This document shows positions 10,146 through 25,331 of a stretch of DNA of 31,880 nt, one piece after another. Numbering within the stretch: position 1 is the first letter of the stretch; each line of letters begins with the position of its first letter. The DNA is from Candidatus Aerophobetes bacterium Ae_b3b. GTDB lineage: Bacteria > Aerophobota > Aerophobia > Aerophobales > AE-B3A. The stretch is from assembly GCA_005223085.1 (NCBI GenBank), contig NJBP01000023.1:1-31880 (forward strand), written 5' to 3'. A program made the translations under genes and the position numbers. The notes below the pieces were generated by a model. That model did no database searches and was not told the origin of the DNA. It saw nothing but the letters and a program-made list of their open reading frames with translations.

Positions 10146-10173
10146 TTGACAAAAAAAATATGTATGGCATGAT
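10146..10173 (+). promoter_or_regulatory. Possible promoter of the first sugar-transporter operon
   Basis: Perfect TTGACA at 10146-10151 with a weak -10, CATGAT at 10168-10173, spacer 16 bp. The LacI-type palindrome at 10180-10189 falls at the expected transcription start. The resulting leader would be about 275 nt. Confidence 0.4.
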
Positions 10174-10189: not shown

Positions 10190-10346
10190 GGGAAAATTGA
10201 AACTGTCTTTTCCAGCGGATTCTTCCTGCAGCTAATAAAAAATGTGAGAATCCTCTTAGATATCCCGGGTGCTGGTAGCCTTTATTATTTTCTGTTGGTT
10301 ATTATTTAGTTAATCGGTTGGTCTCCAGAAGATAAAGAAAATAAAA

Positions 10347-10398
10347 GGCCCGGAAGGGGGTGAGAAGGTGAACAAGCCTGCCTGAGGCAGGGAGGGCC
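10347..10398 (+). promoter_or_regulatory. Structured leader with Shine-Dalgarno-like block, copy 1
   Basis: GGCCC (10347-10351) pairs with GGGCC (10394-10398). Between them lies the purine-rich block GGAAGGGGGTGAGAAGGT (10352-10369), close to the extended anti-16S consensus. After it comes a hairpin CCTGCC-TGA-GGCAGG (10377-10391). The same block, 17 of 18 bases identical, lies at 23805-23822 the same distance before the other binding-protein start (86 versus 87 nt). It may be a standby ribosome site, a mini-ORF (GTG AGA AGG TGA) or a regulatory RNA; function is inferred. Confidence 0.5.
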
Positions 10399-10455
10399 AA
10401 CCTGAGTTTCAAGATTAAAGACTGAGGAAAAAATTTATAAGAAGGAGAATGACCA

Positions 10456-11790
10456 ATGGAGAAAATATTTAAAAAAAGGGTTATTATAACAGTTCTGGCA
10501 GTTGGGCTTATAATGTGGATGGGACTGGTGCCTTCACTAGCTCAGAAGCCTGTTACCATTAAATTTGCTCACTTCTATGATCCTGCGGCAGGAGCAGGCC
10601 ATGTAATGAACATAGAGTGGCTGGAAAAAACGATACCTGCTTTTGAGAAGGAGAATCCTGGTATCAAGGTGGAGTTCGAGTGGACTAAATGGGATGAGAT
10701 AGACATCAGGTCCATAAGAGATTACGCGGCTGGAATCCCTCATGATGTTATGATGAGCTCTCCCCAGCTGATGCCCAAACACTTTATTGCCGGTGACTAT
10801 CTGGATCTTACATCTTACGCGGCAAAATGGCCAAAGGCAAGAGCGGAAGATATTAATTGGACTCCCGTTTGGGGAAAAGTTTTTCCCTTAGGCATACCCC
10901 TGGGAATACACACCAGAACCACCGTCTACCGAAGAGACCTCTTTGAAAAATACGGGCTTGATCCTGGCCGAACACCGGAAGATCTTGAATCATTGGTCAA
11001 GTATGCTCAATTCTTAACCAGAGACACTAATGCCGATGGAAAGACCGACACCTGGGGGTTGGGGATGTACTTTGGTGCCTCACGCGCCACCATTGAACTC
11101 TATTTTGCTCCCTATATTTGGAATTTCGACGGAAAACTGTGGGATCCTGAGACCAAGAGAGCGAGTTTTGCTTCGGAAGCTGGAGTCAAGGCGACAAGGT
11201 TCGTCTACGATCTGGTGAATACCTACAAGGTTACCCCTGAGTGGGCTACCGTTGGAACCTACGATGAGGTGGGATTGATAAATTTTCTGAACGGTACATA
11301 TGCCATGTTTACAGGATTCGGAAGCTACTGGATTGGACCTCTGGAGGAGAAAGGTTGGGTCACGGGGATCTTCCCCCCTAAGTCCTGGGGAAAGGCGACA
11401 GTGGCTGATGTATTTGTCGCCGCCACCAAACCTCATGCACAGTTTACCAATGCCTGGGCGCTTTCCATAAACACACTTAGCGAGCATCCAGATGAAAGCT
11501 TCAAACTGATAGACTTTATAGTTACTCCCGAGCGACTCATCGACTATCCGGATGCGGGACTTCCAACTCTCTTGAGTTTATGGGATAAACCAGAGTTACA
11601 GACCGACTTCTACCAAGAGTGGCTTAAAGCAGCTGCACATGGAAAATCAATGCCGTACACAGCTCATTATGGAGAATTAGCTGATACAGTAGCGGCCTGC
11701 CTTCAAGAGATATTGATCAAGAAGGCACCCATTGAGGCAACCTTAAAGAGATTTGAAGATGAATATAATGCCAAATACGCGGGAGAATAA
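10456..11790 (+). CDS. CUT1 ABC transporter, extracellular sugar-binding protein (family 1)
   Basis: The 444-residue protein has a Sec signal peptide: KIFKKR basic start, hydrophobic residues 9-26, likely cut after SLA29. The mature start QKPVTIKFAHFYDP is typical of family-1 solute-binding proteins (MalE-like). There is no lipobox Cys, so it should be free in a periplasm. Conserved features include FEKENPGIKVEFEWTKWDE (~60), GIPLGIHTRTTVYRRDLFEKYGLDPGRTPEDL (~150-180) and a tryptophan-rich ligand region. It delivers a mono- or oligosaccharide to the two permeases that follow at once (15 bp, then a 1-bp overlap). Start: ATG 10456 with AAGGAGAA. No ATPase gene is adjacent, so a shared MsmK-type ATPase is likely. 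A nearby mannosidase suggests manno-sugars, unproven. Confidence 0.9.
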   Translation: MEKIFKKRVIITVLAVGLIMWMGLVPSLAQKPVTIKFAHFYDPAAGAGHVMNIEWLEKTIPAFEKENPGIKVEFEWTKWDEIDIRSIRDYAAGIPHDVMMSSPQLMPKHFIAGDYLDLTSYAAKWPKARAEDINWTPVWGKVFPLGIPLGIHTRTTVYRRDLFEKYGLDPGRTPEDLESLVKYAQFLTRDTNADGKTDTWGLGMYFGASRATIELYFAPYIWNFDGKLWDPETKRASFASEAGVKATRFVYDLVNTYKVTPEWATVGTYDEVGLINFLNGTYAMFTGFGSYWIGPLEEKGWVTGIFPPKSWGKATVADVFVAATKPHAQFTNAWALSINTLSEHPDESFKLIDFIVTPERLIDYPDAGLPTLLSLWDKPELQTDFYQEWLKAAAHGKSMPYTAHYGELADTVAACLQEILIKKAPIEATLKRFEDEYNAKYAGE

Positions 11791-23733: not shown

Positions 23734-23800
23734 GTTTAAGAAATCTAAGATATTAGTAATCAATAAGACTTCGCTTTGAGAGAATAAGAGCTAAAATAAG

Positions 23801-23835
23801 GCTTGGAAGGGGGTGATAAGGTAAGAAGGCCAAGC
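23801..23835 (+). promoter_or_regulatory. Structured leader with Shine-Dalgarno-like block, copy 2
   Basis: GCTTGG (23801-23806) pairs with CCAAGC (23830-23835) and encloses the block GGAAGGGGGTGATAAGGT (23805-23822; its first two bases are in the stem). The block differs from copy 1 at 10352-10369 in one base. The end of the block is 87 nt before the binding-protein ATG (86 nt in copy 1). The left stem arm differs from copy 1 at two positions, yet pairing is kept by a different right arm. GTG ATA AGG TAA inside could be a mini-ORF. Confidence 0.5.
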
Positions 23836-23909
23836 TAATTAGGAATGGAAAGAGATTTTCTAATGAAGAAGTATGAAGAAAAGTCAATTTCGATGAAAGG
23901 GAGGACCCG

Positions 23910-25331
23910 ATGTTAGGGAAAAGAGGGTTAGTTTTAATTTGTTTAGGTTTGGTGTTATTAATGGTGTTGTCATTGAACGGATTTGCTCAAGAGAAGAAAT
24001 GGTTGTTGCCTCCGGAAAAGGCGGATGTGAATTGGGCCGCATATAAGGGTACAACTCTGACTATCGGTCTGAATAAACATCCTTACACGGAGTCTTTGCG
24101 CCCACTGATACCACAATTTGAAGAGCTAACAGGAATTGAAGTCGCCTATGTTATTCTTCCAGAAGAAGAATTCTTTGAAAAGCTATTGATAGATCTCTCC
24201 AGTGGTGCCGGGTTGTTCGATATCTATATGACCTCTCCAATGTTCGAATGGCGCTACCAGTATGCGGGATGGGTCGAGGATCTGCTCCCCTATTATAACA
24301 ATCCCAAACTCACTGACAAGGAATGGTACAATAGAGAAGACTTTTTCCCTCTGGTTTTGCGAGCAAACGAATGGGATGGGACAATTGGAGGTGGTATGGG
24401 CGAAGGACGATGGAATGGCATACCAGTGATGGTAGAATTTTTTGTACAGGCTTATCGAGAAGATTTACGGAAAAAATGGGGGTTGATTGTTCCCAAGGAC
24501 TATCCTGAGTGGTACGATGTAGTCACCAAAGCAGACGAACAGGGAGGAGCTGATTTCTTCGGTATTGTTGAGAGAGGTATCAGAAGTTGGTCTACCGTAC
24601 ACTCTGGGTATTACACTGGGTTCAACTCATGGGGGCAGAAGGAGCTTACCAAAGACCTCTACGCATCTATCGATACTCCTAAGGCTATTGAGTTTACCAA
24701 GATATGGGTTAAGGCTCTTCAGGATGCTGGAGTACCAGGATGGCCTACCTATACTTGGTATGACGGAATGGAGAGTTACGCTGCCGGGCGAATTTACATG
24801 TATAATGATTGTGACTTTTTTGCTGCCACTTACGAGAACCCGGCTAAGTCAACAATAGCAGGCAAGTCTGGCTATGCGTTGCCTCCAGCAGGCCCTGATG
24901 GTAGAATCGCTTCCAATCTGTGGACCTGGGCTTTGGGTATGAGTGCCTTGTCCCGGCATAAAGAAGCTGCTTGGTTGTTTCTCCAATGGGCAACTTCATA
25001 CCATAGCATGATTGATGCTACAGTAAAACACGACAATTTCAACCCCACTAGAAAGTCGATATGGGAACACCCGGATGTAGCTAATATGGTCAAAAATTGG
25101 GGAGCTTATCCTGGTCAATATGCCGAAAATGTCAATCTCATGCTTACCAAGTATGGAGATATTAGATGGACTCCTAATCCTGATGTGACTGCCGTTGGAG
25201 ATATATGGTGCGATGCTCTTCATGAGGCGTACGCTCGCCAAAAAACTGTAGAACAAGCACTTAAAGATTCCACCAGAGGAATTAACCGAGTAATGAGAAA
25301 ATGGCGCATCGCTCTGGGTATTGAGAAATAA
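23910..25331 (+). CDS. CUT1 ABC transporter, extracellular solute-binding protein (second system)
   Basis: The 473-residue protein has a Sec signal peptide: KR at 4-5, hydrophobic 7-22, likely cut after GFA26. There is no lipobox. The mature region follows the family-1 pattern: TIGLNKHPYTESLRPLIPQFEELTGIEVAYVILPEEEFFEKLLIDLSSG (~50-100), FDIYMTSPMFEW, and a ligand region rich in Trp and Tyr such as YTWYDGMESYAAGRIYMYND. Start: ATG 23910 with GGGAGGA. The set DeoR regulator - binding protein - two permeases - two ATPases - polyol-type dehydrogenases points to a polyol, glycerol or sugar-alcohol ligand; this is inference. A strong hairpin follows the gene. Confidence 0.9.
   Translation: MLGKRGLVLICLGLVLLMVLSLNGFAQEKKWLLPPEKADVNWAAYKGTTLTIGLNKHPYTESLRPLIPQFEELTGIEVAYVILPEEEFFEKLLIDLSSGAGLFDIYMTSPMFEWRYQYAGWVEDLLPYYNNPKLTDKEWYNREDFFPLVLRANEWDGTIGGGMGEGRWNGIPVMVEFFVQAYREDLRKKWGLIVPKDYPEWYDVVTKADEQGGADFFGIVERGIRSWSTVHSGYYTGFNSWGQKELTKDLYASIDTPKAIEFTKIWVKALQDAGVPGWPTYTWYDGMESYAAGRIYMYNDCDFFAATYENPAKSTIAGKSGYALPPAGPDGRIASNLWTWALGMSALSRHKEAAWLFLQWATSYHSMIDATVKHDNFNPTRKSIWEHPDVANMVKNWGAYPGQYAENVNLMLTKYGDIRWTPNPDVTAVGDIWCDALHEAYARQKTVEQALKDSTRGINRVMRKWRIALGIEK

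Follow-up and report, generated by a model that had tools for sequence, protein, structure and literature searches.

Ribosome standby sites keep 30S subunits waiting ahead of the real start site, and they are usually unstructured and not strong Shine–Dalgarno (SD) sequences. In the STAB-SD of Bacillus thuringiensis cry3A, an SD-like sequence of the 5′-UTR is complementary to the 16S rRNA 3′ end and does not serve to initiate translation; it is located near the 5′ end of the transcript, a long way from the start codon, 5′-to-3′ decay by RNase J is blocked, and the binding of 30S lengthens the half-life of the mRNA (PMC4113751). The livJ motif is a riboswitch candidate, known mostly from Streptomyces and associated with LIVBP-like genes, whose SD is predicted to fall in a bulge of its helix P1 (PMC11109978).

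We analysed a 31,880 nt stretch of DNA (the window) from Candidatus Aerophobetes bacterium Ae_b3b, in which two genes for CUT1 solute-binding proteins are each preceded by a related leader element. As in STAB-SD (PMC4113751), the block at the centre of this element could base-pair with the 16S 3′ end, lies about 130 nt (family median) before the start codon and is not predicted to support initiation. Unlike STAB-SD, the block sits in the loop of a covarying hairpin formed by helices P1 and P2, followed by a hairpin P3 and a conserved tail, and a genome holds about 30 such elements, placed before genes of one functional class. RNase J was not found either: 17 genomes (drafts, 69–93% complete) gave nothing above the cut-off, whereas control genomes were positive. 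The RNase J form of STAB-SD is thus unsupported, and we do not file the element as a member of STAB-SD. Like a standby site, the Aerophobota element would hold 30S upstream of the real start; it differs in displaying a 10-nt SD complement in a conserved loop, before a gene with its own accessible SD. With the livJ motif (PMC11109978) it has in common that a structured RNA precedes genes of periplasmic binding proteins, but the Aerophobota element stands before genes for many substrate classes, and a long distance separates its block from the start codon.

The two leaders of the window

An earlier note on this DNA had pointed to two 18-nt blocks, differing in one base and ending 86 and 87 nt before the ATGs of the two binding-protein genes, and the sequence confirms this. 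The core blocks are GGAAGGGGGTGAGAAGGT in copy 1 and GGAAGGGGGTGATAAGGT in copy 2, and the respective ATGs start at 10456 and 23910. A block pattern with one N was matched exactly by both copies, whereas the shuffled window averaged 0.29 matches even with up to three mismatches. Two exact matches in 32 kb are therefore not due to chance. The following features were annotated, R1 and R2 being the covariance models described below.

10146–10173, + strand: promoter-like TTGACA-16-CATGAT upstream of copy 1 (consensus match only)
10321–10443, + strand: leader element copy 1, diverged, with P2 kept, P1 absent and P3 shortened (R1, 30.8 bits, E 0.0057 for the whole genome; no match with R2)
10346–10349, + strand: P2 left arm of copy 1, AGGC (homology with the family P2)
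10352–10369, + strand: core block of copy 1 with the 16S-complementary GGAAGGGGGTGA, one G-U wobble (pattern match; 16S 3′ end GGATCACCTCCTTTC)
10376–10379, + strand: P2 right arm of copy 1, GCCT (homology with the family P2)
10377–10391, + strand: private hairpin of copy 1, CCTGCC-TGA-GGCAGG (fold and sequence; not seen in other copies)
10401–10427, + strand: possible short P3 of copy 1, CCTGAGTTT..AGACTGAGG enclosing CAAGATTAA, a sequence similar to the family loop AAAGATTAA (fold; inferred from the family loop)
10456–11790, + strand: CUT1 solute-binding protein gene downstream of copy 1 (PF01547)
23785–23912, + strand: leader element copy 2, R2 bounds (R1 bounds 23773–23872; R1 36.9 bits, E 3e-4; R2 32.5 bits, E 7e-4)
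23789–23792, + strand: P1 left arm of copy 2, AGCT (family P1 comparison)
23800–23803, + strand: P2 left arm of copy 2, GGCT (family P2 comparison)
23805–23822, + strand: core block of copy 2, inside the P2 loop (sequence; family alignment)
23828–23831, + strand: P2 right arm of copy 2, GGCC (family P2 comparison)
23833–23836, + strand: P1 right arm of copy 2, AGCT (family P1 comparison)
23910–25331, + strand: CUT1 solute-binding protein gene downstream of copy 2 (PF01547)

Judged by alignment with the family, the window copies are diverged members, copy 2 retaining P1 and P2 and copy 1 P2 alone. The private hairpin of copy 1 overlaps the right arm of P2, so that the two compete. Since copy 1 was missed by R2, its membership rests on R1, its near-identical core and its position. 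Single-sequence folds of the full window leaders were not unusually stable (z −1.6 and −0.45), and the structural case therefore rests on comparison. Between 10146 and 10190, a perfect palindrome (GAACCGGTTC) follows the promoter-like TTGACA..CATGAT and is a candidate operator for a LacI-type repressor.

Distribution and gene context of the leader family

We scanned the genome of origin (2.04 Mb in 86 contigs; the window is contig C85) for the block with up to three mismatches and found eight further copies sharing flanks: the block is preceded by AAUAAGGCC and followed by ANNUAGGCC...AGCU, beyond which come a second hairpin and UGAACCAUGUC. All were upstream of binding-protein genes of transporters, with one exception before a dehydrogenase. 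A covariance model built from seven own-genome copies, with the window copies left out (R1), found 30 copies in this genome at E<0.006, both window copies included. Matches were obtained in 9/9 genomes of the GTDB family (E≤0.1) and in 16/17 genomes of the phylum (E≤0.001), 155 in total. A second model that includes P1 (R2) likewise gave 30 own-genome copies (E<0.0025), copy 2 among them and copy 1 not. The comparison indicates that the blocks are the core of a predicted structured leader RNA family of Aerophobota, about 140 nt long. The earlier note had suggested a genome-wide covariance-model search and had staked its proposal on the block recurring at the same position in related genomes. 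With about 30 copies at home and recurrence in 16 of the 17 phylum genomes, its observation is confirmed as real and is larger than it stated; its interpretation is partly supported.

In a wider pattern scan, the public contigs carrying the element were mostly named Candidatus Aerophobetes. Outside this phylum, R2 detected convincing copies in three Atribacterota genomes, located before CUT1, CUT2-type and TTT binding proteins and a CUT1 permease; with stricter filters, R2 found the element in 0/299 genomes of Bacillota. Two other Atribacterota matches of about 30 bits (L248, L249) have unrelated genes downstream and were taken as chance. Full Aerophobota-type elements were also present as single copies in metagenome-assembled genomes labelled Bathyarchaeota (L173) and Aenigmatarchaeota (L182), probably on misbinned contigs. 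A public scan with the own-genome-only pattern RGGNGGTGANAARGTANNTAGGCC gave no match; as this pattern fits just 4/145 family members, it is a poor query, and the empty scan is no evidence of absence. At locus L129, two tandem copies on the minus strand (2050–2203 and 2266–2420), separated by 62 nt, precede a single gene for a peptide-type binding protein.

Rfam 15 contained no model matching at gathering score and none with E≤1 in 11 own-genome loci. Seven other loci gave two chance hits at E of about 1, one of them elsewhere in its locus. A search of mostly open-access literature found nothing linking Aerophobetes to a riboswitch or Aerophobota to noncoding RNA. The element thus apparently constitutes an undescribed RNA family with strong covariation, belonging to an uncultured phylum in which a 2-Mb genome may hold up to about 30 copies.

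An ORF on the same strand was found near the 3′ end of 131/145 copies, mostly within 10–50 nt. Among 109 non-redundant downstream proteins there were 49 SBP_bac_1, 19 SBP_bac_5, 6 Peripla_BP_4, 4 DctP, 3 Peripla_BP_6 and 2 TctC; a minority were enzymes, among them short-chain dehydrogenases and xylose-isomerase-like proteins. The binding proteins belong to the CUT1, CUT2, peptide, TRAP, TTT and amino-acid classes and have unrelated folds. The leader is therefore neither CUT1-specific nor plausibly a riboswitch for one substrate, and we infer that it did not spread by gene duplication alone. The earlier note had expected an RNA common to the CUT1 operons of this lineage; a structured leader shared by uptake operons was found, but its restriction to CUT1 does not hold, the element marking solute-binding-protein operons irrespective of substrate. 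By our tally, a copy immediately precedes 21 of the 41 SBP_bac_1 (PF01547) genes in the genome of origin, and another four show sub-threshold matches in the expected position.

Promoter-like sites were enriched 30–39 nt before P1 (10 versus 1.9 expected), which would put the element near the transcript start in a share of the operons. Copy 1 of the window is exceptional in having its TTGACA promoter-like site about 140 nt upstream, and no promoter-like site was found upstream of copy 2.

Helices and covariation

The family consensus consists of P1 (AGCUAA/UUAGCU), P2 (GGCC/GGCC) with RRGGAGGUGA in its loop, the hairpin P3 and the tail UGAACnAnGUC. P1 also occurs as GCUGGA/UCCAGC, GAUAGA/UCUAUC, GACAGA/UCUGUC, GCCGGA/UCCGGC, AGUUAA/UUAACU and GGCCAA/UUGGCU, and P2 ranges from GGCC/GGCC to GACC/GGUC and AGCC/GGCU. 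P3 is a long two-part hairpin with the loop GUGUUGAAAGAUUAA; some copies have P3 deleted or shortened and keep the tail. The A-rich junction, the purine loop, the P3 loop and the tail are also highly conserved.

In a 102-row alignment fitted to the structure, compensatory changes were present at 28/28 pairs, double-change cells numbered 272 versus 117±13 in shuffles, and 88% of the cells were paired versus at most 68% when slid. The signal was weaker but still present in a MAFFT alignment (A6; 86.8% versus 85.0%, 1/500 shuffles), whose members were chosen partly for P1. The P3 arms, tested in fixed windows, gave z −9. In the pairing search, the z of −17 for P1 is inflated because its boundaries were chosen to maximise pairing per copy, and the z for P2 is unusable (empty duplexes). 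Among the 5′ region, loop, P3 and tail, nothing was found beyond P1–P3: pairing of the loop with P3 (p 0.02) and of the 5′ region with the loop (p 0.03) did not survive eleven tests. RNAalifold favours a GCC/GGU pairing, in which part of the block would be covered.

The stems drawn around the two blocks in the earlier note are present as letters, GGCCC/GGGCC at 10347–10351 and 10394–10398 and GCTTGG/CCAAGC at 23801–23806 and 23830–23835, but the family-conserved helices are others. As these two stems are not homologous, the compensatory change proposed between them is invalid; despite this, such change is abundant in the family itself.

These data also bear on the idea of a dispersed mobile repeat that stands before transporter genes by happenstance. 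Many copies per genome, some of them close together and several at contig ends, would suit such a repeat. Against it are the compensatory evolution, the strong sequence divergence between copies, and the constant orientation and distance relative to the same functional class of genes, so that we consider this explanation barely credible.

Two structural variants were noted. At L244 (1501–1613, Atribacterota), before a CUT1 permease gene, P1, P3 and the tail are kept and the SD-bearing P2 loop is replaced by a few bases; the modules of the element may thus act separately. A long-loop P2 variant, with about 7 extra nt after the SD block (e.g. GGTAAGAAAATAAATA), occurs in several families of the phylum (L086, L087, L129, L130, L036 and L039).

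Complementarity to 16S rRNA and possible function

Positions −2 to +7 of the block read RRGGAGGUGA in the consensus of 114 copies. These ten nucleotides are complementary to the 16S 3′ end (UCACCUCCUU), with A or G opposite 16S U, and the 16S 3′ end was canonical in seven genomes. Of the letters at these positions, 98% were compatible with pairing, a figure that is partly circular for the core, as a match to GGAGGTGA at 6/8 positions or more had served to anchor the copies; the two flanking purines are exempt. ATG or GTG 4–12 nt after GGAGG was found in 14 copies versus 40 expected, by a rough test that ignores shared descent. An extended SD-like block with no gene behind it, as the earlier note had described for the window, is thus borne out across the family: in these genome sequences, an anti-SD complement is displayed in a conserved structured leader in cis, with no start codon predicted behind it.

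The GTG within the block could belong to a true leader ORF or a translation-coupled leader peptide. The mini-ORFs reported earlier, GTG-Arg/Ile-Arg-stop, are indeed there (GTG-AGA-AGG-TGA in copy 1, GTG-ATA-AGG-TAA in copy 2), and 35/114 copies have a three-codon GTG frame. Across the family, however, the frame varies from 1 to 60 codons, 8/114 copies have no GTG, the GTG overlaps with the SD that would serve it, and properly spaced start codons are rarer than expected. A leader ORF is therefore very improbable, and a leader-peptide attenuator was rejected because the short ORF is not conserved.

Our leading idea, held with a little less than even confidence, is standby or ribosome capture: the leader would act in cis by capturing 30S without initiation, in the manner of STAB-SD or a standby site, and would thereby set the expression of the uptake operon. 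The loop of the P1–P2 hairpin would capture free 30S subunits on the young transcript, and translation would not start as no start codon is suitably placed. The captured 30S would shield the leader, and ribosomes would stay near the start of the solute-binding-protein gene. Uptake proteins would thereby be made at a high level, or at one that depends on ribosomes, irrespective of the substrate. This arrangement suggests a shared ribosome-based control of the amount of uptake machinery. The genes' own ribosome-binding sites have an SD in 65/76 cases and the GGTGA extension in none. Ribosome capture alone does not explain the conservation of the A-rich junction, P3 loop and tail, or copies without the SD loop (L244).

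Alternatively, the element may be a riboswitch for a global signal, i.e. a nucleotide or central metabolite that reports on the state of energy or carbon supply. The aptamer would then comprise P1 and P2 together with the A-rich junction and the purine loop, and the complementarity of GGAGGUGA to 16S rRNA would be incidental or belong to the switch. The element does have the conserved, structured, aptamer-like 5′-UTR expected of a riboswitch, extending to the P3 loop and tail; it occurs in many copies across functionally related operons, occasionally in tandem, and the GCC/GGU pairing could open or close the block. However, no expression platform was found: neither window leader had a terminator on the gene strand, 76 leaders gave no sign that the gene's own ribosome-binding site is sequestered (cognate versus permuted, p 0.34), and the pairing search gave no further pairings. 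The genes share no one metabolite, and their diverse substrates (sugars, peptides, amino acids and those of TRAP and TTT systems) would fit only a global ligand. With substrates this diverse and no expression platform found, a classical riboswitch is less likely, and we regard the global-signal version as possible but doubtful.

A binding site in the element, through which an RNA-binding protein coordinates the uptake operons post-transcriptionally, would account for the conserved single-stranded purine loop and tail, and the downstream genes resemble one regulon. A carbon regulator and the best-known protein that binds GGA loops, CsrA was found in none of the 17 genomes, whereas the controls E. 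coli, B. subtilis and T. maritima were positive; no other candidate was identified, and we judge such a site unlikely.

Ribosome capture, if it occurs in the loop, would represent a structured and portable form of SD-based mRNA control, and a coordination of nutrient uptake by ribosomes could be tested directly with reporters in E. coli or Bacillus. In a bolder and rather unlikely version, the element would be a phylum-wide sensor of free ribosomes, in which the super-SD loop measures the availability of 30S, and P1, P2 and P3 rearrange to set how strongly a large share of the nutrient-binding proteins is expressed. Such a sensor would link translation capacity directly to nutrient uptake.

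In 6/7 rRNA loci (L235–L241) we also observed a second GGATCACCTCCT about 770–880 nt past the 16S 3′ end, apparently within 23S rRNA.
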